Of a stretch of DNA of 20,652 bases, positions 527 to 15,380 are shown in pieces. This DNA is from a virus. Positions within the stretch are counted from its first letter, which is position 1. Every line of letters begins with the position of its first letter. The translations under genes were made by a program, and so were the position numbers. The notes below the pieces were generated by a model. That model ran no database searches. It was not told the origin of the DNA and saw only the letters and a list, made by a program, of their open reading frames with translations. The DNA is taken from the IMG/VR virus record IMGVR_UViG_3300023443_000173, positions 1 through 20,652 of that record. The stretch is one strand, 5' to 3'.

Positions 527-555
527 TTGCAATAAAACACAGCAAGCAATATAAT
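527..555 (+). promoter_or_regulatory. Strong sigma70 promoter for RNA1
   Basis: A -35 hexamer TTGCAA (527-532), a 17-nt spacer and a perfect -10 hexamer TATAAT (550-555) lie immediately after the stop codon at 525. The predicted start is about 562, exactly where the first helix of the downstream structured region begins (563). It is the best promoter match I found in the window. It implies that host RNA polymerase transcribes RNA1 and the genes after it. Confidence 0.75.
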
Positions 556-561
556 TTACAT

Positions 562-960
562 CTCACACGTTCTGATCACTCAGTGTGGTCATGTGATAAG
601 GGGAGCTAGAGATAGCTCTTGAAACGGATGCCCGATACATCCAATGCTCCCCATTTTACTCTATATCGGTTCGCTTATCGGGAGCGAAGAATGTCTTTTC
701 AGACAAACAAAATCCCAAAAAAGGTTTTACACAGGCTAGCTATCCTTAAAAGTTTTGCCTCTAGACTACAAAACAAATGTTCTAGCTCTCGCGACCCGTA
801 GAACTAGACACCTTGGCGACCAAATTTTGGTTGTGGGCACAAAAGGCAAGTGTTGTTAGTGACTATCGCTTGTAGAGAAGGGCCTTAATGCTTCTCTGGG
901 GACTACGATTACCCGGCCTCACAGGCTTCGCTTAACTGGCGACTTGGAAGTATACCAAGG
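562..960 (+). ncRNA. Structured RNA 1 (long leader or free ncRNA), class unknown
   Basis: This gene-free stretch between the promoter and the gene at 1005 folds by eye into a chain of perfect or near-perfect helices: 563-567/592-596, 574-579/585-590, 600-606/646-652, 626-630/638-642, 670-675/683-688, 693-696/701-704, 779-784/799-804, 817-823/827-833, 847-852/867-872, 874-880/891-897, 916-919/923-926 and 943-947/955-959. An alternative hairpin, 603-608/613-618 with a GAGA (GNRA) loop, competes with the 600-606 helix. CCTTGG at 811-816 can also pair with CCAAGG at 955-960. No U-tract follows, so transcription probably continues into the gene at 1005. It may therefore be a very long 5' leader or a processed RNA. 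The 3' boundary is approximate. I cannot match it to a known riboswitch, tmRNA or intron; large phage RNAs such as GOLLD or ROOL are candidate classes to test. Confidence 0.65.
626..688 (+). other. Pair of kissing-loop hairpins inside RNA1
   Basis: Hairpin A has a 5-bp stem GGATG/CATCC (626-630/638-642) and a 7-nt loop CCCGATA (631-637). Hairpin B has a 6-bp stem TTCGCT/AGCGAA (670-675/683-688) and a 7-nt loop TATCGGG (676-682). The two loops are exact reverse complements over all seven bases. This is the geometry of a kissing complex, either within one molecule or between two copies. A second TATCGG at 664-669 offers a competing partner for loop A. Confidence 0.6.
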
Positions 961-1004
961 GGGAAAGGGTAGAATTATGTCTAAAACACAAAAGGAGAGA
1001 CAAA

Positions 1005-1217
1005 ATGAACGATGCTACAGCAACATTAATAGGTGAAACAATTGGACAGATCACACTTGCACTTGCGCCACCTTCCCTACGCGACCAATTCGCAATGGCT
1101 GCATTAACTGGGTTGATTGCGTCTAATCCGACTGTTCAGGCCTCAAGGATAACGGCAATAGACGCCTATGTTCATGCTGACGCCATGATGAAAGCACGGG
1201 AGCAAGACAGTGAGTGA
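1005..1217 (+). CDS. Small conserved-type phage protein, unknown function
   Basis: 70 residues, starting at ATG behind AAAGGAGAGACAAA, a good Shine-Dalgarno. Residues 24-66 (SLRDQFAMAALTGLIA, then AIDAYVHADAMMKARE) match the pattern of small phage proteins that often sit beside replication genes, which have an LRDYFAAQAL-type motif and a Y-HADAML-ARE ending. I know no established function for them. It is the first gene after RNA1 and probably shares its transcript. Its TGA lies 8 bases inside the next frame. Confidence 0.75.
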   Translation: MNDATATLIGETIGQITLALAPPSLRDQFAMAALTGLIASNPTVQASRITAIDAYVHADAMMKAREQDSE

Positions 1218-1440
1218 TTGGATCAAGATAGAAAATCCTGTTCCGCACGCAGTGGTAATTGTAACTGATGGCTGGTCGGTTAGGTTCGGGTTCTGGCAAG
1301 ACGGCAAAGAACATGAAGCGCAAGGCAGTAAGGGCGGCGGCTGGCGAGACAATGATATTTACAGAGGTCTAGCGTTTCTACCCACGCATTATATCGAAGT
1401 GCCTTCAACTGAAAGCCTGCGGGAGAAATCCAGTGAATGA
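1210..1440 (+). CDS. DUF551-like small phage protein
   Basis: 76 residues with a GTG start at 1210 that overlaps the end of the upstream gene by 8 bases. The pattern is W-I (residues 4-5), a stretch VVIVTDG-WSVRFGFW, then GGGWRDND and finally THYIEVP. It resembles the small phage proteins with an N-terminal WI, a central beta hairpin and a C-terminal THW-LP signature (DUF551-like). The role of that family is unknown. No ATG lies nearby in frame, so GTG is taken as the start. The family call is by eye and moderate; the coding call is firm because of the coupled overlaps on both sides. Confidence 0.65.
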   Translation: MSDWIKIENPVPHAVVIVTDGWSVRFGFWQDGKEHEAQGSKGGGWRDNDIYRGLAFLPTHYIEVPSTESLREKSSE

Positions 1441-2140
1441 GAGAGAATTAACAGAATACAACGAACGCTGGCTGAAAGAGTGCCTGAAGGACGAGAACCT
1501 TTTCGACCATGAGCGCGCATTACTACGGGTGATGATTGGTGCACTGCCTATGGGTTTGGAGCCTAAAGAATTAAACGGTGCTCCTAAACATATATCCCAT
1601 CCTATCCCGTACGTTACAGAACTATTCGAACAGAACACTAAAAATAGAGGTGACGCACAACAATCTGAGCCGGGCGGTGATTACGTCCTGACTGGCAAGA
1701 AGAAAAAACTAACGGGTACAGACTTGGAAAAGTTCTGGTTGTTCTGGAATGCATTCGACTACAAGAAAAGTCGTGCCGAAGCTGCACAAGCCTGGATGGA
1801 CATACCCGACACCAAAGACGAAGCATTCATGGAACACATCCTGTATGCGGCCCGTCAGACAGCAAGCGAACGAAAGCCAGCAGTTACACCCAAGATGGCA
1901 CAAGGCTGGCTCTCAGCGCGTCGGTGGGAAGATTACGAGGCATCTAGTGCACAATCACCTACAGAGTGGAGCATAGAGAAGTGGAAAGAGTTCCTTGATG
2001 GGCCGAGCGGTTCATATATGCACAAGTCTAAGTCATGGCCTGATTATCTGTCTGGGCCTAACCCTTGGGAATATATAAACCGGGACATTCCACAAGAAGT
2101 TTTAAACATTTATGGTAAGGCATGGGGATGGCTAAGGTAA
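1433..2140 (+). CDS. Replication protein / helicase-loader-like
   Basis: 235 residues, GTG start at 1433 coupled to the upstream gene. Residues about 100-170 carry the pattern seen at the C-terminus of many phage replication initiators and loaders (O/DnaT/DnaD-associated): FW-FW-AF-YKKSRAEAAQAW, a helix with ILYAARQTASER, and PKMAQGWLSARRWEDY, equivalent to the usual TWLN-RWED motif. In that family the segment contacts helicase or DNA during origin loading. The N-terminus (1-60) is acidic and helical, with no clear HTH. The C-terminal extension (175-235) is Trp-rich and unfamiliar. Its place among small early genes fits a replication role. The exact partner cannot be read from sequence. Confidence 0.6.
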   Translation: MNERELTEYNERWLKECLKDENLFDHERALLRVMIGALPMGLEPKELNGAPKHISHPIPYVTELFEQNTKNRGDAQQSEPGGDYVLTGKKKKLTGTDLEKFWLFWNAFDYKKSRAEAAQAWMDIPDTKDEAFMEHILYAARQTASERKPAVTPKMAQGWLSARRWEDYEASSAQSPTEWSIEKWKEFLDGPSGSYMHKSKSWPDYLSGPNPWEYINRDIPQEVLNIYGKAWGWLR

Positions 2141-4518: not shown

Positions 4519-5436
4519 ATGGCGGGTTTATTCTCTAGTGGCGGCGGTGGCGGAGGCGGTGGTGACGGCGGTTCTCCCGCGCCACTGAACAGCGCTGTTC
4601 CTTTTTACTTGGCAAACGAAACCTTGGACTGTTTTACCGATGTTGACGGCGCTAGGTGGCTGAAGACGGGTGTTACTCAATCGGGCGCTAGTGTACCTGA
4701 CAATCCCAATGCTTTTACTAATTTAGCAACATTCACCGGGACTTCTTTCAGCACTACAAATGAAGATACTGCAATGCAAGGCATAACCTGGGATGGTACA
4801 CATTTCTGGGTTGTTGGTCTTATTAATATGACAGTCTATAAATATGACGCTTTGGGTGTATTCACCGGCACTTCTTTCAGCGTAGCAAGTGAGGAAACAG
4901 CACCATCTGACTTGACATGGGATGGTACACATTTCTGGGTTGTTGGTTCTTCTACTGACGCAGTCTATAAATATGATGCCTTAGGTGTATTCACCGGCAC
5001 TTCTTTCAGCACCGCAAGTGAAGATACATTCCCCCGCGGGGTAGTGTGGGACGGCACACATTTCTGGGTTGCTGGTGATTCCACCAACACAGTCTATAAA
5101 TATGATGCCTTAGGTGTATTCACCGGCACTTCTTTCAGCACCGCAAGTGAAGATACGTCAATACACAGCATAACATGGGACGGCACACATTTGTGGGCTG
5201 CCGGTGATTCCACTAACGCGGTCTATAAATACGACGCTTTGGGTGTATTCACAGGGATCTCTTTCAGCGTAGCAAGTGAGGATACAACACCTCGTGGAGT
5301 AGTGTGGGACGGCACACATTTCTGGGTTGTTGGTGATTTAAATGATGCTGTGTTCCAGTACACTTTGTCAATTGGCGACCCTGTAGCTCGCATAGACACA
5401 GATACCGGCTACGCTATTTTTATAAGGATTAACTAA
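4519..5436 (+). CDS. Repeat beta-propeller-like virion protein
   Basis: 305 residues behind a good AAAGGATATAAGT site. It starts with a short helix and a glycine run (residues 8-15 all Gly), likely a flexible linker. Residues about 72-286 are five tandem 43-residue units. Each has the pattern FTGTSFS-ASEDT, a variable position, WDGTHFWVVG, a variable loop, and VYKYDALGV. Four-strand units of this length with WDGTHFWV resemble NHL/YVTN-type propeller blades. The C-terminus (residues 287-305) is short. Five blades plus ends could close a propeller, which would suit ligand or receptor binding on the virion. It is tightly coupled (TAATG) to the next small gene. The function as a fibre component is inferred from the neighbours. 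Confidence 0.6.
   Translation: MAGLFSSGGGGGGGGDGGSPAPLNSAVPFYLANETLDCFTDVDGARWLKTGVTQSGASVPDNPNAFTNLATFTGTSFSTTNEDTAMQGITWDGTHFWVVGLINMTVYKYDALGVFTGTSFSVASEETAPSDLTWDGTHFWVVGSSTDAVYKYDALGVFTGTSFSTASEDTFPRGVVWDGTHFWVAGDSTNTVYKYDALGVFTGTSFSTASEDTSIHSITWDGTHLWAAGDSTNAVYKYDALGVFTGISFSVASEDTTPRGVVWDGTHFWVVGDLNDAVFQYTLSIGDPVARIDTDTGYAIFIRIN
4732..5376 (+). repeat. Five tandem 129-bp repeats in the propeller gene
   Basis: The motif TTCACCGG-ACTTCTTTCAGC recurs with starts at 4732, 4861, 4990, 5119 and (diverged) 5248, exactly 129 bp apart each time. Copies 2 to 4 are nearly identical at the DNA level. The period is 43 codons, so gain or loss of a unit keeps the frame. Confidence 0.95.
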
Positions 5437-6532: not shown

Positions 6533-6554
6533 GCACTCGCAGCTCTCGCCAACT

Positions 6555-6579
6555 AAGCCTCCTTGTGGGGCTTTTTCTT
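6555..6579 (+). terminator. Intrinsic terminator after terminase small subunit
   Basis: Stem AAGCCTC (6555-6561) pairs with GGGGCTT (6567-6573) across a 5-nt loop, with one G-U pair. It is followed directly by a T-rich tail (TTTCTTT). It closes the fibre/terS transcript 23 bases after the terS stop and isolates the RNA2 promoter downstream. Confidence 0.8.
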
Positions 6580-6664
6580 TGCCCAGTATGCAAGTATCTT
6601 GTAGGATATTAAGAAGTGAACGCGCTCTAAGACCGGAAAGTATCAGAAATATTGTATTTAGGCC

Positions 6665-6692
6665 TTGATTTACTGTTTTTAGGGGTTATATT
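6665..6692 (+). promoter_or_regulatory. Promoter for RNA2
   Basis: TTGATT (6665-6670), a 16-nt spacer and TATATT (6687-6692) fit a sigma70 promoter. The predicted start near 6699 coincides with the 5' strand of the first long helix of RNA2 (6694-6706). The stretch 6580-6664 shows no gene and no clear structure. Confidence 0.6.
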
Positions 6693-6698
6693 AGGTTT

Positions 6699-7123
6699 GT
6701 AACGAGCGGCGTTGAAAGTAGAAGCGCAAACGATGCATAGTTTTACAGTGGGAAACATGGAATCCTTAATCTGTTGCGAGGATTAGGGCGGTAGGTTCAA
6801 AACCTACGCTGTATAGCCTCAGTAACGCGGGGCCTCGTTACAAGTTCTGAGTATGTTTTGAGTTAGGTGTGTGCAGATGAGTGGATACAAGAGGAAGTTG
6901 GCGAAACAGCGATAGCGTTAGCCTGACCGGAAGCCAGAGACTGCTCATTAATGCCGGACCGCACACCGCTCAACACAGTGATAGCTATACCCGAAGGATT
7001 GGGTGAGAGACAGCCGCCCCTCCTAATGTGGCAATACTAGTTCTTGGCGAGTTGATCATAGCCTCTTGCTGGTCGGGGAAACGCACGAGTTAGTCGCGTG
7101 CATCCTTCGGATATAGTTAACAC
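6699..7123 (+). ncRNA. Structured RNA 2 with tRNA-like domain, class unknown
   Basis: The region holds no convincing gene and folds into nested helices. A 13-bp helix (10 Watson-Crick pairs, 3 G-U) joins 6694-6706 to 6834-6846 and encloses the tRNA-like fold. TTGAG/CTCAA (6858-6862/6969-6973) is stacked with GTGTGC/GCACAC (6869-6874/6961-6966) and ATGAG/CTCAT (6877-6881/6944-6948). A long final helix pairs 6978-6999 with 7102-7123, with two mismatches, one G-U pair and an uninterrupted 9-bp core CCGAAGGAT/ATCCTTCGG. Inside it is a GCACG/CGTGC hairpin (7083-7087/7097-7101). No U-tract follows, so it may be a leader of the gene at 7147 or a processed RNA. The layout (tRNA-like 5' domain, ornate 3' domain, phage setting) recalls GOLLD-type giant RNAs, but I cannot confirm membership. 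Confidence 0.65.
6742..6815 (+). other. tRNA-like cloverleaf inside RNA2
   Basis: The T arm is canonical: stem GTAGG/CCTAC (6791-6795/6803-6807) with loop TTCAAAA. The anticodon-like arm is AATCT/GGATT (6768-6772/6780-6784) with a 7-nt loop GTTGCGA; the reading would be TGC (Ala type). A D-like arm is GGA/TCC around AACATGGAA (6751-6753/6763-6765) with the usual GG. The acceptor TTTACAG/CTGTATA (6742-6748/6109 side at 6809-6815) has one T-T mismatch. An extra base (6808) and a 3-bp D stem make it non-standard, and no CCA is encoded. It is more likely a tRNA mimic than a working tRNA. Confidence 0.45.
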
Positions 7124-7607: not shown

Positions 7608-7717
7608 TATCTTGTGGTGTGCAGTTGTTAGACAACGTCCTTGTACGCGAGGGTGCGAAGGTTATCGTAAGACCCTTTCCGGCTACACACCTCACGATAT
7701 TATTTAAGGAGAGAGAC
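7608..7717 (+). promoter_or_regulatory. Structured leader of the Ala-tract gene
   Basis: The 110-nt gap folds: GGTGTG (7616-7621) pairs with CACACC (7686-7691). Inside lie hairpin GTTGT-TAG-ACAAC and a CCTT...AAGG hairpin with an inner CGC/GCG stem. AAGGAG at the end is the binding site of the next gene. GTGTGCAGTTG (7617-7627) nearly repeats GTGTGCAGATG of RNA2 (6869-6879). The next gene's frame is open back to 7619, but this structure and the binding site argue that the gap is untranslated. Confidence 0.4.
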
Positions 7718-8377
<660 letters not shown>

Positions 8378-9133: not shown

Positions 9134-9306
9134 ACGGTAGAAGCGGCATTGGAATGAAGAAGCACGGCGTTTGCGGTTCTCGTAATGGCTGCGGTAAATC
9201 ACCAAAGCTTAGACTTCAGATGAAAATGAACGCAGAAAAAGACGAGCGGAAAGCCAAGCCGTCAACCTGTGACAAGTCTAGTATTAGGGATTTGTTTAAG
9301 GCATGA
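9130..9306 (+). CDS. Small basic Cys-containing protein (58 aa)
   Basis: The start is taken at ATG 9130, which makes an ATGA overlap with the previous gene; a GTG three codons earlier in the same frame lacks that coupling. The product is strongly basic (MKKHGVCGSRNGCGKSPKLR, then NAEKDERKAKPSTCDKSSIR) with a G-V-C-x5-C pair and one further Cys, so a small zinc or nucleic-acid-binding protein is possible. It ends in another ATGA overlap with the large terminase. No family is recognised. Confidence 0.55.
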   Translation: MNGRSGIGMKKHGVCGSRNGCGKSPKLRLQMKMNAEKDERKAKPSTCDKSSIRDLFKA

Positions 9307-10832
9307 ACATTGAAGAAGCAGCTAAAGAGCTACTACGGCGCAGACGGGCAGAAAGTAGCCTGATAGACTTTACTCGGTATACCTTCCCAAAGTACCGGCC
9401 TGCGGACCATCATTTCCAGATTGCAGAGAGGCTTGAAGCTGTAGAACGTGGTGACATTAAACGCCTAATGATCTTCATGCCGCCCCGCCACGGTAAGAGT
9501 GAGCTAGCATCAAAGCGTTTCCCTGCGTGGTGCCTTGGCCGTGATCCAGATAAGAATTTCATATCAGCATCGTATAACTCAGAGCTTGCAGGTGATTTTG
9601 GCCGGGAAGTCCGTAACATTATCCAGGAGCAAGAATATGCAAACCTGTTCCCCAATACCAGCATTGCTAAGGATAGCGGTTCAGCCCCTCGCTGGCACAC
9701 TAACGGTCTAGGCGGTTACGTTGCTGCGGGTATTGGTACAGCAGTTACGGGTCGGGGCGCTCATATATTCACAATTGATGATCCCGTTAAGGATAGAGAA
9801 CAGGCAGAAAGTGAACGGCAACGCAGAACTATTTACGACTGGTACAAGTCAACGGCATACACACGCCTGGAATCAGAGTTAAGTGGTGAGGTAACAGAGG
9901 AAGACTTGTTTTGGGATGTATCCGCATCACTCAGGGAAGGACTAATCAAGCCGTTCGAGGGTGCAATCGTTCTTATTCAAACACGGTGGCATGAAGATGA
10001 TTTAGCAGGCAAGCTGATAACCGACATGGAACGAGGTGCCGACCAGTGGGAGATTTTAGATTTACCCGCAATACAGGACAACCAAGCTTTATGGCCTTCA
10101 AAGTACCCGCTTGATAAGTTAGAGAAAATCAAGACAGCAATCGGCGCTCGGGAATGGTCGGCATTATATCAACAGCAGCCGCAGCCTGACGAGGGCACAT
10201 ACTTCCTGAAGACGTATTTCAACAGATACGACAAGTTGCCTGACCCTGTTAACGTGTGGCTGACTTCAGATTACGCGGTAAGTGAGGACAAAGGCGATTA
10301 TACTGAGCATTCGGTATGGGGCATTGACCATGTAAACAACATCTACCTGATGGATAATTGGCACGGGCAAACAACACCGGACGTATGGATTGACGAGGCA
10401 TTGAAATTAATCCTAAAATACAAGCCTTATGTGTGGTTTGGTGAGGGTGGTGTAATTCGCAGGTCAACAGAACCTTTCATCAAGAAGGCTATGGAGGATC
10501 AAAAGACATACGTTCGTCTAGAGTGGATTAACCCGGTTGGTGACAAGCCTTCAAGGGCTAGATCATTTCAGGCCCGCGCCGCAATGGGCAAAGTATACCT
10601 TCCTAACAATGCTGTAGGCGATAGGGCTTTAGACCAGATGATAAGGTTTCCAACAGGTAAGCATGATGACTTTGTTGATACAGCTTCATTGATGGGATTA
10701 GTGATAGATCAGGCACACCAAGCATATATACCAACCGAGGATGTTCCAACGGACTACTTGCGCCCAGCAAGGTTTAAAGATATTGTGAGGGGCACAAGTA
10801 AAAACCGCAAAGCAAGAGAAAAGGCTTGGTAA
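9303..10832 (+). CDS. terL: Terminase large subunit (packaging ATPase/nuclease)
   Basis: 509 residues. The N-terminal ATPase has Walker A MPPRHGKSE (residues 59-67), Walker B IFTIDDP (155-161) and coupling motif QTRWHEDDLAG (226-236). The C-terminal RNase H-like nuclease has a first acidic site SDYAVSEDKGDYTE (322-335) and the late motif GKHDDFVDTAS (452-462). It pumps DNA through the portal into the prohead and cuts the concatemer. The length is normal. A segment of about 29 residues between YTRLE (186-190) and GAIVLIQTRWH replaces the few residues common in relatives. The start is coupled to the gene before it (ATGA) and the stop to the portal (TAATG). Confidence 0.95.
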   Translation: MNIEEAAKELLRRRRAESSLIDFTRYTFPKYRPADHHFQIAERLEAVERGDIKRLMIFMPPRHGKSELASKRFPAWCLGRDPDKNFISASYNSELAGDFGREVRNIIQEQEYANLFPNTSIAKDSGSAPRWHTNGLGGYVAAGIGTAVTGRGAHIFTIDDPVKDREQAESERQRRTIYDWYKSTAYTRLESELSGEVTEEDLFWDVSASLREGLIKPFEGAIVLIQTRWHEDDLAGKLITDMERGADQWEILDLPAIQDNQALWPSKYPLDKLEKIKTAIGAREWSALYQQQPQPDEGTYFLKTYFNRYDKLPDPVNVWLTSDYAVSEDKGDYTEHSVWGIDHVNNIYLMDNWHGQTTPDVWIDEALKLILKYKPYVWFGEGGVIRRSTEPFIKKAMEDQKTYVRLEWINPVGDKPSRARSFQARAAMGKVYLPNNAVGDRALDQMIRFPTGKHDDFVDTASLMGLVIDQAHQAYIPTEDVPTDYLRPARFKDIVRGTSKNRKAREKAW

Positions 10833-12934
10833 TGGCTCGAGAACGTTCAAAAACAGATTCCCAAAAATTCTGGGGTAATCAGATTTCCGACCAACAGAAG
10901 CGGTTTAAGGATGGTTGGTACAGTCGTGGTGAAAACACCGTGGAGCGTTACCGTAATGGCGGCCAGGGCGGTAAAGAGACTAGTTTTAATATTCTGTGGT
11001 CAAATACAGAAATCCTCAAGGCTGCAACATTCTCTCGCACGCCACCGCCTAATGTGGCAAGGCGACATAAAACGGTCAATACAAACAATGACCCACAAGT
11101 TAACATACAAATAGCGGTAGCAAGGGAAGCTTCCGAAACAATAGAACGGGTTTTAGAGTTTTATAGCGAAGAGAAGACATTCACCAAAAACCTGCGTAAA
11201 TGCCGTGATGATATGTTGTTACCTGGACGCGGTGCAGTTTGGGTTCAATACAATTCAGAATTCAGGACTATAGAGCTTGAGATAATGGACGAGGTTCTTG
11301 ACCTAGACGTTGAGAGAGAACCAACATTCCAATTTGAAGGCCGCATAGTAACACCTGATAGATTTATAGAGATTGAAGGCGAGAATATCCCTGTAGCTGA
11401 CGAGTTCGTAACTGAAAGCGTTGAACTTCAGTATGTATACTGGCAGGATTTCTTAACGTCAGATTCAAGAGCATGGGAAGATGTGTGGTGGGTTGCGCGT
11501 CAGCATGGTCTTGATAAAGATGAGCTGGTTGACAGGTTTGGCAAGGAAAAAATAGATAGCATAGGCATTGATGGAGCTACCCAAACAGACAGTAACGATA
11601 ACAAAAGAGATGTTTTTAACGTCTGGGAGATATGGGACAAGACGAAAGGCGAAAGGGTGTGGTTTATGAAAGACGCCCTGGATACATTAAAGATTGAGCC
11701 GGTTAAACTGAATCTTAAAGATTTCTTCCCTTGTCCTGAACCTATTATGCCGTTTGAGACTAACGACACAATGATGCCCATCCCTGAGTTTTTGGTTTAC
11801 AAAGACTTGGCCGTTGAACTTGACGTAATATCCAGCCGCCTTACTTCGCTTACTGAAGCTATGAAGCTTACAGGTCTTTATGGCACCATGAACAAGGACG
11901 CAATCGCCAATTTACAAAATGGGTCCGACGGACAATTAATTGGCGTTAATATGGCGGCATTTACTGAGGGCGGAACATTAAACCAGCAAATTGTCTGGAT
12001 GCCTATTGGCGAGGCGGCGGGCGTAATTCAGCAGCTTGAGTCCCGCAAGGCTATCATTAAAAATGAAATCCATGAAATTACAGGCATTAGCGACATTGTT
12101 CGCGGTGCTACTGATCCTAACGAGACAGCAACCGCTCAACGGCTAAAGGGTTCCTTTGGCTCTCTTCGTTTACGCCCAAGGCGTGAGCCTATGGAAGAGT
12201 TAATCCGTGATGTTTATGGCATAATGGGTGAAATCATTGCAGAACAGTTTGACCAATCAACAATTGAGAAGATAACAGGAAAGCCTGTTCATCCTTTTGT
12301 TATGGAGTTCTTGCAAGACGATGAGCTTCGTGACTTCCGTATTGATATTGAAACGGACGCAACAGTCCAGCCTAACCAAGAGATAGACCAGCGGAACGCG
12401 GTGCAGTTTGTTGAGGTTATCAACAGCCTGTTTACAGTCGCGCTCCCGGCTGTAAAAGAAACACCTGAATTAGGCCCATTAGTAGGCGCAACCATGAAGT
12501 TCGTCGGCAATCAGTTTAAAGCTGGTCGCGAGCTTATGGGTATATTCGATGAAACAATTGATCGCCTATCTCAACAGGGACAGCAGCCACAAGGTGAAGA
12601 CGTAGCATCACAGATTGCCGCACAGCAACGGCAGATTGAACAGGGTAAGCTACAAATAGAACAAGGTAAATTACAGGTAGAGCAAGGAAAGCTTCAAGGG
12701 CAACAGCGCGATCAACAGTTAGAGCAGCAACAACAACAGATTGACGTCGCAGCACTTCAGCAGGAAGAACGCTTAACTAATCAAAACAATGAGGTCGATT
12801 TATTGCAAGACCAAATCAGGGGTGGCGTACAAGTGACAACCGCTCAAATAGAGGCTGCAACTTCTGCCGATGACAACAATACCAAATTAGCTGTTGAACA
12901 ATTAAAACAACTCGCTAGCCGCCGTCTAAATTAA
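10832..12934 (+). CDS. Portal protein, P22-like
   Basis: 700 residues from ATG 10832 (TAATG overlap with terL); a TTG six bases earlier is unlikely. Features of the family include early WGNQISDQQKRFKDGWYSRG, FNILWSNTEILKAATFSRTP, the central DVWWVARQHGLDKDELV, and VRGATDPNETATAQRLKGSF (about residues 427-446), a well-kept segment of these portals. From about residue 590 to the end lies a Gln-rich coiled coil with three RQIEQGKLQIEQGKLQ-type repeats, matching the C-terminal barrel of long podovirus portals. Twelve copies form the DNA entry ring at one capsid vertex, docked by TerL inside the cell and by the adaptor after filling. Confidence 0.9.
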   Translation: MARERSKTDSQKFWGNQISDQQKRFKDGWYSRGENTVERYRNGGQGGKETSFNILWSNTEILKAATFSRTPPPNVARRHKTVNTNNDPQVNIQIAVAREASETIERVLEFYSEEKTFTKNLRKCRDDMLLPGRGAVWVQYNSEFRTIELEIMDEVLDLDVEREPTFQFEGRIVTPDRFIEIEGENIPVADEFVTESVELQYVYWQDFLTSDSRAWEDVWWVARQHGLDKDELVDRFGKEKIDSIGIDGATQTDSNDNKRDVFNVWEIWDKTKGERVWFMKDALDTLKIEPVKLNLKDFFPCPEPIMPFETNDTMMPIPEFLVYKDLAVELDVISSRLTSLTEAMKLTGLYGTMNKDAIANLQNGSDGQLIGVNMAAFTEGGTLNQQIVWMPIGEAAGVIQQLESRKAIIKNEIHEITGISDIVRGATDPNETATAQRLKGSFGSLRLRPRREPMEELIRDVYGIMGEIIAEQFDQSTIEKITGKPVHPFVMEFLQDDELRDFRIDIETDATVQPNQEIDQRNAVQFVEVINSLFTVALPAVKETPELGPLVGATMKFVGNQFKAGRELMGIFDETIDRLSQQGQQPQGEDVASQIAAQQRQIEQGKLQIEQGKLQVEQGKLQGQQRDQQLEQQQQQIDVAALQQEERLTNQNNEVDLLQDQIRGGVQVTTAQIEAATSADDNNTKLAVEQLKQLASRRLN

Positions 12935-12937
12935 ATG

Positions 12938-12984
12938 TTTACGAATAACATAATTTTAGCTAAGATTAACTGTAATTTAGTTAA
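12938..12984 (+). promoter_or_regulatory. Weak promoter candidate and hairpin before capsid block
   Basis: TTTACG (12938-12943), 17 nt, TAAGAT (12961-12966) is a four-of-six match at both boxes. A hairpin TTAACT/AGTTAA (12966-12971/12979-12984) with a 7-nt loop ends one base before GGGCG, so it could affect access to the next binding site. Evidence is weak; read-through from terL/portal may be enough to express the capsid genes. Confidence 0.3.
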
Positions 12985-12993
12985 GGGCGAATA

Positions 12994-13260
12994 ATGACTA
13001 TTTCACAGGAAACATTTGCGTACTGGCGTAAACACGGCGCTCCCGGCATCACAACTAGTGAACGGGAGGCCTTTGTTTCTCATGCCGACGGCAAGAGATA
13101 CACTTGTTCAAAAAAATATGAAGCTGAAGTTAAGGCTCGCGGTTATGAGATTGTTGGTGATGCAGCAATTGAAATGGACGATAAGCCTAGTGCTGAATAT
13201 GTAGCAAAGCTGGATGATGATATTAGGACAGCATACAACAATCATGAGGGCGAGACATGA
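12994..13260 (+). CDS. Small hypothetical protein in capsid operon
   Basis: 88 residues behind AAGGGCGAATA. It opens ISQETFAYWRKHGAPGITTS, followed by HADGKRYTCSKKYEAEVKAR and an acidic C-terminus. A segment TCSKKYEAEVKARGYEIVGD could be a small alpha/beta domain. It stands between portal and scaffold and is coupled to the scaffold start (ATGA). Small proteins at this place are sometimes head-assembly accessories, but no family is recognised. Confidence 0.6.
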   Translation: MTISQETFAYWRKHGAPGITTSEREAFVSHADGKRYTCSKKYEAEVKARGYEIVGDAAIEMDDKPSAEYVAKLDDDIRTAYNNHEGET

Positions 13261-14387
13261 CTGATTTGACACAAACAGAGCAGCTAGATGCTGACATTGA
13301 AAAGGCTATGGAGAATTTTTCACCTAATGTTTCTGAAGAGGTAACGAAAGAGGCTTCAGAAGAGGTTGAGGAAAAAGTCGAGGAGACGGTAGTTGAAGAA
13401 ACCGCAGAGCAACCCGAAGTTCAAGATACTGATGGTTCTGCCAATACCGACATCGAAGATACCGAAGATACGGAAGCCACCAGCGTGGCTGATGACGCAG
13501 CCCAAGAATTAACTGAAGACGAAACAGAGGAATTATTAACAGTATCCGAAAGCTGGTCTAAAGAAGACCGCGCCGTTTTTGACGGAATGGAGCCGGATGC
13601 ACAACAAATACTACTTCAGCAATCCAAGAACCTGGAAAAAGGGTTCACTCGCAAATCTATGAAGCGTGCGGATGATCTGAAGTCTTATGAGGATATTGTC
13701 AGCCTATACAGTGGTTTTGAAGTACAGTTGAACCAAGCAGGCCTGAACCCGGTGACGGCAACTCAGAGACTTGTGGGCGCTCAACAAGCACTTATGCAGA
13801 ACCCTGAAGCTGGGCTAAGGCAATTAATGACAGAGTATGGCGGAGGCGACCTTAAGGGTATCGTCACGCGCATGGCAACAGATTTAGGCATAACCGCAGC
13901 AGCCGATGACGGTCAAGCTGATTATGTAAGTGATACAGAGCGAGCGTTGCAACAGCGTCTAACTGCAATGGAGCAGTCACAGGCGCAGCAGGCTCAAGCA
14001 ACTCAAACACAACAGCTCAACCAGCTGCAAAATCAAGTCAAATTATTTGAAGGAGCAGTCGACGAACATGGAAATAAGCTACACCCTCACTTTAATGACG
14101 TAGAAGGCATTATGACTACGCTGCTACGGAGCGATCCATCATTAGGATTAGACCGCGCATATGATGTGGCAGTCCGTAGTAACGACACGCATTTCGATTC
14201 ATTAGTGAGTGACAGAGTTACCGCAGCGCAGAAATCAGCAGACGCCAAGCGGAAACAAAAAGTAGCGAAATCCAAGGACGCCGGAAGTAACGTAAATTCA
14301 AATAAAGCACCATCTAAGGGCCGTGATAAGCGTATCAGTACAGATGATGCAATCAGAGACGCGATTAGCAAGCACAAGTTTGGCTAA
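13257..14387 (+). CDS. Scaffolding protein
   Basis: 376 residues. The first 95 residues are extremely acidic (runs such as EEVTKEASEEVEEKVEETVV) and probably unfolded. A middle helical region follows, with SWSKEDRAVFDGMEPDAQQI and a Gln-rich coiled coil near 230-262 (MEQSQAQQAQATQTQQLNQL). The C-terminus is basic (KRKQKVAKSKDAG, then GRDKRISTDDAI), as in scaffolds that bind coat protein by a charged terminal helix. Its place right before the major capsid gene and the acidic, coiled-coil, basic layout are the classic signs. It directs prohead assembly and then leaves or is cut. No protease domain is visible. Confidence 0.85.
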   Translation: MTDLTQTEQLDADIEKAMENFSPNVSEEVTKEASEEVEEKVEETVVEETAEQPEVQDTDGSANTDIEDTEDTEATSVADDAAQELTEDETEELLTVSESWSKEDRAVFDGMEPDAQQILLQQSKNLEKGFTRKSMKRADDLKSYEDIVSLYSGFEVQLNQAGLNPVTATQRLVGAQQALMQNPEAGLRQLMTEYGGGDLKGIVTRMATDLGITAAADDGQADYVSDTERALQQRLTAMEQSQAQQAQATQTQQLNQLQNQVKLFEGAVDEHGNKLHPHFNDVEGIMTTLLRSDPSLGLDRAYDVAVRSNDTHFDSLVSDRVTAAQKSADAKRKQKVAKSKDAGSNVNSNKAPSKGRDKRISTDDAIRDAISKHKFG

Positions 14388-14399
14388 TGGAGAAATAAC

Positions 14400-15380
14400 A
14401 TGGCTTCGGCTAACGCACTATTTGACGACATTCTGACGTCAACGCTGATCAATCGTGACGGCGCTATGGCAGATAACGTGTCAAATCATAACTCACTCTT
14501 GCGCTTTCTGCGTAAGGCTGGGAATATAACCGTATATGACGGCGGTACATCGTTGATTCAGAACATTGACTTTGTAGAAAACACCACTTTCAAGTGGTAT
14601 AGTGACTACGATGTCCTTGATGTTTCGGCATCACAGACTTTCAGCGCCGCTGAATTCGACGAAAAGCAATCTGCTGTTACAATTACTGTATCTGGTAAAG
14701 AGATGCGCCAGAACGCAGGCAGTAAAACCCGCGTATTTGATCTTGTAAAAGCACGCATTATGAATGCAGATCGTACCGCTGCTAACGAGATTTCTACAGC
14801 AGTATATTCTGATGGAACTGGTTCTGGTGGTCAAGAGATTGGCGGTTTACAGCTTCTTGTTGCTGATGATCCGACCACAGGTATCGTTGGTGGTATTGAT
14901 CGTGCTAACTTCAGCTTCTGGCGTAACCAGAAATTCGATACAACGGCTGACGGTTCTGGCGCTGCAACTGCTGCAAATATTCAAGAGTACATGGATCAAC
15001 TTTGGCTCGACTGTGTTCGCGGTGAAGACGTCCCGAAAATGATTGTTGCAGACGTGAACTTCTATAAGTTTTTCCGTGGATCACTAACAGACATTCAGCG
15101 CATCACAAGCACTGATACCGCAGGCGCAGGCGCAAATACGCTTGCATACCACGGTACAGGCGGCACTGCGCAAGTAATGATGGATAAATCAGGTCCGGTA
15201 AATCATATGTACTTCTTGAATACAGACTTCCTGTTCTTTAAGGCGCACCGTGATGCTAACTTTACGTTCCAGCCTGAGCAAACACCAGTCAACCAAGACG
15301 CTGTTGTGAAGCATCTACTGTTCCAGGGTAATATGACCTTGAGCAATGCTTCCCTCCAAGGCGTTCTGTTTGACGCATAA
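14400..15380 (+). CDS. Major capsid protein
   Basis: 326 residues behind GGAGAAATAAC. The sequence follows a well-known capsid family: LFDDILTSTLINRDGAMADN, then FKWYSDYDVLDVSASQTFSA and AAEFDEKQSAVTITVSGKEM, and the invariant block VYSDGTGSGGQEIGGLQLLV (about 139-158) followed by ADDPTTGIVGGIDR. The fold is expected to be HK97-like. There is no long cleavable N-terminal delta domain, consistent with a separate scaffold gene. The strong codon bias and good binding site suit the highest-expressed virion protein. The next gene begins 15 bases after. Confidence 0.95.
   Translation: MASANALFDDILTSTLINRDGAMADNVSNHNSLLRFLRKAGNITVYDGGTSLIQNIDFVENTTFKWYSDYDVLDVSASQTFSAAEFDEKQSAVTITVSGKEMRQNAGSKTRVFDLVKARIMNADRTAANEISTAVYSDGTGSGGQEIGGLQLLVADDPTTGIVGGIDRANFSFWRNQKFDTTADGSGAATAANIQEYMDQLWLDCVRGEDVPKMIVADVNFYKFFRGSLTDIQRITSTDTAGAGANTLAYHGTGGTAQVMMDKSGPVNHMYFLNTDFLFFKAHRDANFTFQPEQTPVNQDAVVKHLLFQGNMTLSNASLQGVLFDA

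Follow-up and report, generated by a model that had tools for sequence, protein, structure and literature searches.

The window analysed here is a whole IMG/VR virus record (IMGVR_UViG_3300023443_000173; 20,652 bases), perhaps itself a genome fragment, in which a protein family scan recognised the terminase, portal, and major head protein of a tailed phage. An intergenic gap of about 480 nt, bounded by an upstream ORF that ends at 525 and a downstream ORF that starts at 1005, contains a promoter-like sequence followed by a series of predicted hairpins, two of which carry the loops considered here, L1 and L2 (Table 1). Promoter-like sites numbered 2, as compared to 1.1 in shuffles, and the transcript would start near 562, at the base of the P1 hairpin. 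The third gene after the leader (1433–2140), whose product is a weak match to replication-initiation proteins of phages (PHROG 9474, E 5e-5), makes the next recognisable gene a replication-like one. The product of the first gene (1005–1217) carries a C-terminal domain common to many phage contigs (141 relatives, of which the best 80 were kept, with most matches confined to the C-terminal part).

Table 1. Features of the leader and the genes that follow it, in window coordinates
Feature	Position	Strand	Basis or remark
Sigma-70-like promoter, TTGCAA-17-TATAAT	527–555	+	10/12 consensus matches
P1 hairpin, putative 5' end (563–567/592–596, 573–579/585–591)	563–596	+	RNAfold
Three-way-junction scaffold: P2 (600–606/646–652), P3 (608–611/616–619), and P4	600–652	+	RNAfold
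Hairpin 1 (P4): GGATG 626–630/CATCC 638–642; loop L1 CCCGATA 631–637	626–642	+	
Linear copy of the L2 motif, TATCGG, complementary to L1 632–637	664–669	+	Sequence scan
Hairpin 2 (P5): TTCGCT 670–675/AGCGAA 683–688; loop L2 TATCGGG 676–682	670–688	+	
P6 hairpin, TGTCT-TTTC-AGACA; the conserved block ends here	692–705	+	RNAfold, alignment
Remaining leader, not alignable with the relative	713–1004	+	167/500 shuffles align equally well
First downstream genes	1005–2140	+	70-aa, 76-aa, and 235-aa proteins

The original prediction, that L1 and L2 are exact reverse complements and are closed by perfect stems of 5 and 6 bp, was reproduced in sequence and in coordinates. In a scan for pairs of hairpins with perfect stems of at least 5 bp, loops of 5–9 nt, and loop complementarity of at least 6 nt within 150 nt, L1/L2 was the sole such pair on either strand of the window. 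Dinucleotide-preserving shuffles of 527–1004 contained a 7-nt pair in 0 of 2000 cases and a 6-nt pair in 1 of 2000, and shuffles of the whole window (n = 20) gave a mean of 0.05 pairs of at least 6 nt and no pair of 7. A similar scan (loops of 6–9 nt, within 120 nt) over both strands of 184 loci, 1.03 Mb in total, yielded one other 7-nt pair, in locus L054 within a 175-codon ORF, which was taken as chance. The probability of 4^-7 that had been attached to the match took no account of how many loop pairs were compared, but an excess well above chance stands.

A relative of the phage (IMG/VR 3300029927_000028; 33,958 bases) was located with the 235-aa protein encoded downstream of the leader as the query of a scan. 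Its terminase and head protein share 92% and 94% identity, respectively, with those of the window. A contig of a metagenome-assembled genome (MAG; JAESRW010000002.1) carries the same sequence as the relative, with 1 mismatch over the 8000 bases compared, so that there are two distinct leader sequences in all. The relative's phage (L175) is a 34,146-base contig in this MAG, which is labelled Flavobacteriales; a host relationship and a binning error are both possible.

The promoter and leader (520–718) share 69% DNA identity with the relative, whereas the flanks, 1–520 and 720–1420, gave no blastn or tblastx match to the compared stretches of the relative (L002 and L177), except for the Shine-Dalgarno stretch. 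These results indicate that the leader is a conserved island. Within it, positions 600–623 are identical between the two phages, a TTGACC/GGTCAA hairpin occupies the place of P1 in the relative, and the promoter hexamers of the relative at the aligned place are weaker (TTGCAC-17-TACTAT). The Shine-Dalgarno-containing stretch 5' of the ATG at 1005 is also kept and matches the relative downstream of its HNH ORF. This ORF, which encodes a 163-aa HNH endonuclease (PF01844, E 6e-9; locus L083, 1164–673, minus strand), separates the leader of the relative from the gene that follows and is flanked by an 11-nt direct repeat, GTAGAGCTATG (1215 and 676); the window has no such insert. The HNH ORF raised the possibility of a group I or II intron, which was rejected, as there was no Rfam match.

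Elsewhere in the window, a single tRNA-Ala (TGC) gene (6742–6818) sits 3' of the small terminase gene, where 600 nt contain no long ORF on the plus strand, and the sequence around it (6554–6933) has 73% identity to the relative. An ORF 5' of the terminase genes (4519–5436) contains several TGTSFS-ASEDT...WDGTHFWVVG repeats with a beta-propeller-like look, and a 252-aa ORF (7619–8377) ends in a long, low-complexity C-terminal tail rich in Ala, Asp, and Tyr. In the region 9303–15380, the nearest isolate match of the terminase is Pseudanabaena phage Pam1 (56.5%), whereas the nearest isolates for the major capsid protein are Bradyrhizobium phage ppBjS10J-1 (45.7%) and Myxococcus phages Mx9/Mx8, suggesting that the genome is mosaic.

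Both hairpins are present in the nested structure predicted for the window by RNAfold, which adds a U676–G682 wobble to hairpin 2 and leaves a loop of 5 nt. In the nested ensemble, L1, the linear copy, and L2 were mostly unpaired, except for the two end bases of L2. The fold of 562–707 was more stable than those of shuffled sequences (z −2.68; 3/300 equally stable), and the stability of the corresponding block of the relative was unremarkable (z −1.63; 19/300). An ornate large RNA spanning 562–1004 was rejected, because its 3' half cannot be aligned to the relative and the fold of 708–980 was no more stable than shuffles (z −0.43). A coding role for 619–801 was also rejected, since this ORF has no relatives and its frame is not kept in the relative.

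No clear intrinsic terminator was found in the leader, where the sole call was weak and fell on hairpin 2 itself. The two sites complementary to L1 (664–669 and 676–682) are followed in the window by GGGAG and then by ATG at 691, a possible start, and the relative has no ATG here. The GGGAGC at 680–685 in hairpin 2 duplicates the 5' strand of P2, so that GCTCCC (646–651) could pair with either; this duplication is not kept in the relative. The scaffold has candidate long-range pairings with 738–744 and 764–770, and a stretch considered as a possible Rho site has, in raw counts, C exceeding G by 11 and 15 per 78 nt.

A third site, missing from the original prediction, is the unpaired linear copy of the L2 motif just 5' of hairpin 2. 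On the plus strand of the window, TATCGG occurs at 664, 676, and 17981 only. Because the linear copy is complementary to L1, L1 has two candidate partners. In geometry, L1 and the linear copy would form an H-type pseudoknot (the 5-bp P4 stem and a 6-bp second stem), L1 and L2 would form a kissing complex, and the two are mutually exclusive. The bases that flank the linear copy and L2 differ, and a recent tandem duplication is thus not an obvious cause of the repeat. Two sites, one of at least 6 nt, arose in 0.1% (window) and 0.05% (relative) of the mononucleotide shuffles, and in 4% and 0.5%, respectively, of the dinucleotide shuffles of the 35–37-nt segment, which are a weak control in that much of the motif is retained.

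All three sites differ between the two phages, and they have changed in concert. In the relative, L1 is CCCCAGT (L083, minus strand, 1548–1542), L2 is TACTGGG (1505–1499), and ACTGG stands at the place of the linear copy (1517–1513). From the window to the relative, the core of L1 thus goes from CCCGAT to CCCAGT, that of L2 from ATCGGG to ACTGGG, and the linear copy from ATCGG to ACTGG, where TC is replaced by CT just as it is in L2. The GA to AG change in L1 and the TC to CT change in L2 compensate for each other and leave CCCAGT complementary to ACTGGG over 6 nt. For a random 7-nt loop with the local base composition, the frequency of a match to L1 over 6 nt would be 0.0011. The estimated duplex energies were −9.2 and −8.9 kcal/mol for each phage's own L1 and L2, −7.2 and −6.9 kcal/mol for its own L1 and linear copy, and −4.4 and −4.3 kcal/mol for the crossed L1 and L2. 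These values suggest that the loop of each phage prefers its own partners.

The stems are less uniform. In the relative, 2 of the 6 pairs of P5 carry a change in both strands, 3 are unchanged, and 1 is broken; in P4, 1 of the 5 pairs carries a change in both strands, whereas 2 are broken. P2 and P3 are invariant between the two sequences and hence offer no covariation evidence. In a control on the whole structure, 63 of 500 shuffles reached the observed values, indicating that the helices are not settled by two sequences, and, since the material searched held two distinct sequences only, the covariation amounts to one comparison. In the fixed register of the alignment, the L1–L2 helix keeps 3 of 7 pairs, with 0 pairs changed on both sides; this register fails because the relative's loop has an extra C, by which the helix slips one base. 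Hairpin 1 of the relative has a contiguous stem of 3 bp only (AGG/CCU) and is absent from the unconstrained RNAfold structure, and L1 and the linear copy are each predicted to be partly paired elsewhere in the ensemble.

The original prediction had proposed that complementarity of the loops in homologs be taken as a check on their pairing. In the one relative available, the loops are complementary after both had changed, which supports a real loop–loop pairing, whereas the fixed register and the weak hairpin 1 speak on the other side. The support from the relative appears good but not clean. Base pairing of L1 with its complementary site or sites is, in our judgement from these comparisons, highly probable. 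A chance complementarity in an ordinary leader would agree with there being two sequences only and with the one chance 7-nt pair met in the compared loci, but the absence of such pairs from all 2000 shuffles and the complementarity retained in the relative despite the sequence change make it very improbable.

The concerted change at three sites would also fit a switch in the specificity of a protein that acts on DNA, namely a DNA-binding protein or a replication initiator that binds TATCGG (two direct sites and one inverted) with a specificity differing between phages, and a replication-like gene does lie downstream. However, the spacings are unequal, the sites lie 3' of the putative transcript start and in loops of hairpins with stems that have changed in pairs, and the plus strand has no extra TATCGG nearby. 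We regard sites at the DNA level as improbable. A transcript element acting directly on RNA polymerase, as does the put antitermination RNA of HK022, which makes the enzyme read through terminators, would suit a block that is conserved next to the promoter and placed where an operon transcript begins. It would leave the concerted change at three sites unexplained; moreover, put consists of two stem-loops in about 70 nt, and the text of the paper on it uses neither "kissing" nor "pseudoknot" (PMC9378689). Such an element is quite improbable here.

The linear copy also bears on the purely structural readings. The original suggestion that the RNA locks itself remains one of several readings, and is rivalled by the second complementary site at 664–669. 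In the form weighed here, an L1–L2 kiss within one molecule would lock the 5' domain of a stable leader or non-coding RNA, with the linear copy as a folding intermediate or an accident. The loops, stems, and lengths suit an intramolecular 7-bp kiss, and the greater stability of 562–707 over shuffles agrees with it, whereas the linear copy, which a pure L1–L2 lock does not need, changed in step with L2, and the relative's block is not unusually stable. On balance, we consider a lock rather unlikely. Self-complementary pairs of loops can also act between molecules, and the phage RNAs GOLLD and ROOL make kissing-loop multimers (PMC12286853). Sequence cannot separate inter- from intramolecular pairing, but nothing here favours multimers, and the leader has no Rfam match to GOLLD or ROOL. 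An intermolecular L1–L2 contact that builds dimers or larger rings has a low probability. The second site at 664–669 makes a two-partner switch, or a self-antisense leader, likelier than a single lock or ring.

Further relatives of the leader were sought with a model, R1, built from the sequences of the window and the relative only. For R1, 50 of the 80 terminase-scan records, 50 of the 80 records found with the downstream protein, and the best 80 of the 141 loci with the 70-aa protein domain, all of which may include fragments, gave no match. Because R1 comes from two sequences, these blank searches say little on distant relatives. Among phages, there was no match for window 527–1010 or for the relative; plasmids gave no match; and among 7 genomes of the order that contains the MAG, only that MAG matched. 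Several candidates were rejected as leader relatives: in L087 and L088 the pattern matches lie inside ORFs, L170–L174 share GGGGAGC...GCTCCCC only, L176 is a pattern match, and the best of L178–L184, L182 at 22 bits, faces a 1198-codon ORF on the other strand.

We propose that the promoter starts a transcript whose structured 5' leader precedes an operon beginning with replication-related genes. The first 145 nt would fold into P1, a three-way junction that presents L1, and P5, which presents L2. L1 would pair first with the linear copy, forming the H-type pseudoknot with P4, and then with L2, forming the kissing complex. The most probable use of this pairing is regulation: whether L1 acts in cis, as the transcript emerges, or in trans, on a second or a processed RNA copy, it would set the level of transcription or translation of the genes from 1005 on. 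As a whole statement, that pairing of L1 in cis or in trans regulates the downstream operon is plausible, at somewhat short of an even chance.

The leader may further represent an undescribed family of phage leader RNAs, in which a single loop has a choice of partner, a linear site or a hairpin loop of the same sequence, and would act as a cotranscriptional two-state switch; set against open-access texts, through searches whose aim was not to rule out earlier publication, this is possible but doubtful. Within the same reading, the three sites may drift together so as to provide recognition of the phage's own transcript, as an RNA-coded specificity of immunity or copy control, a suggestion to which we give an equally modest chance. 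No antirepressor was found among the window proteins scanned, most of which have no assigned family, and the proteins scanned in all included no repressor, integrase, or recognised lysogeny gene product. An immunity role is therefore without genetic support, and "immunity" serves here as a label for a mechanism only.

If the pairing is real, three short sites that change together would give a phage a compact self-recognition in a few nucleotides, and RNA control of the c4/CI type would extend to environmental tailed phages that are missed by known RNA models. In addition, compensatory mutation could cleanly separate the competing pseudoknot and kissing states.

The original prediction had drawn parallels to ColE1 and phi29, and these are loose. 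The kissing loops of ColE1 RNAI/RNAII are, as here, 7 nt long and fully complementary, but both loops here are on one strand and, presumably, one transcript, and no opposing antisense gene is needed. The packaging RNA of phi29 carries complementary loops on one phage RNA and serves packaging without an ordinary terminase, whereas both small and large terminase subunits are present here, and there is no Rfam match to it. Overall, no Rfam family reached threshold for the leader. The GOLLD and ROOL RNAs resemble it as phage RNAs with kissing-loop contacts (PMC12286853), but gave no covariance match, and conservation is limited here to about 145 nt.

The closest likenesses are to two self-antisense leaders. 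The CI RNA of the satellite phage P4, an untranslated leader RNA ahead of replication genes, pairs with two complementary sequences, seqA and seqC, and halts transcription of the replication genes (PMC4825925). Here too, in the window and in the relative, L1 is complementary to two sites (664–669 and 676–682) on what would be a shared transcript; in P4, however, seqA lies upstream and the other site downstream of CI, whereas both sites here lie downstream of L1. In the c4 RNA of P1 and P7 (PMC5320573, PMC12197685), variable loops on a constant scaffold act against sites near the ribosome-binding site, and a few changed bases separate the specificities of the two phages. The present leader likewise has a constant three-stem scaffold and a short variable loop whose specificity would differ between related phages. 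It differs in that c4, which RNase P processes to about 77 nt, has a second antisense loop, b', whereas the scaffold here has about 53 nt, with no b' and no ant gene found; the C4 covariance model (RF01695) matched 0 of the 2 records, window and relative, at E up to 10, and an E-10 Rfam scan of 500–1050 gave no C4 match. We file the leader under no family and propose that P4 CI and P1/P7 c4, as self-antisense leaders, are the nearest models of how it would work.
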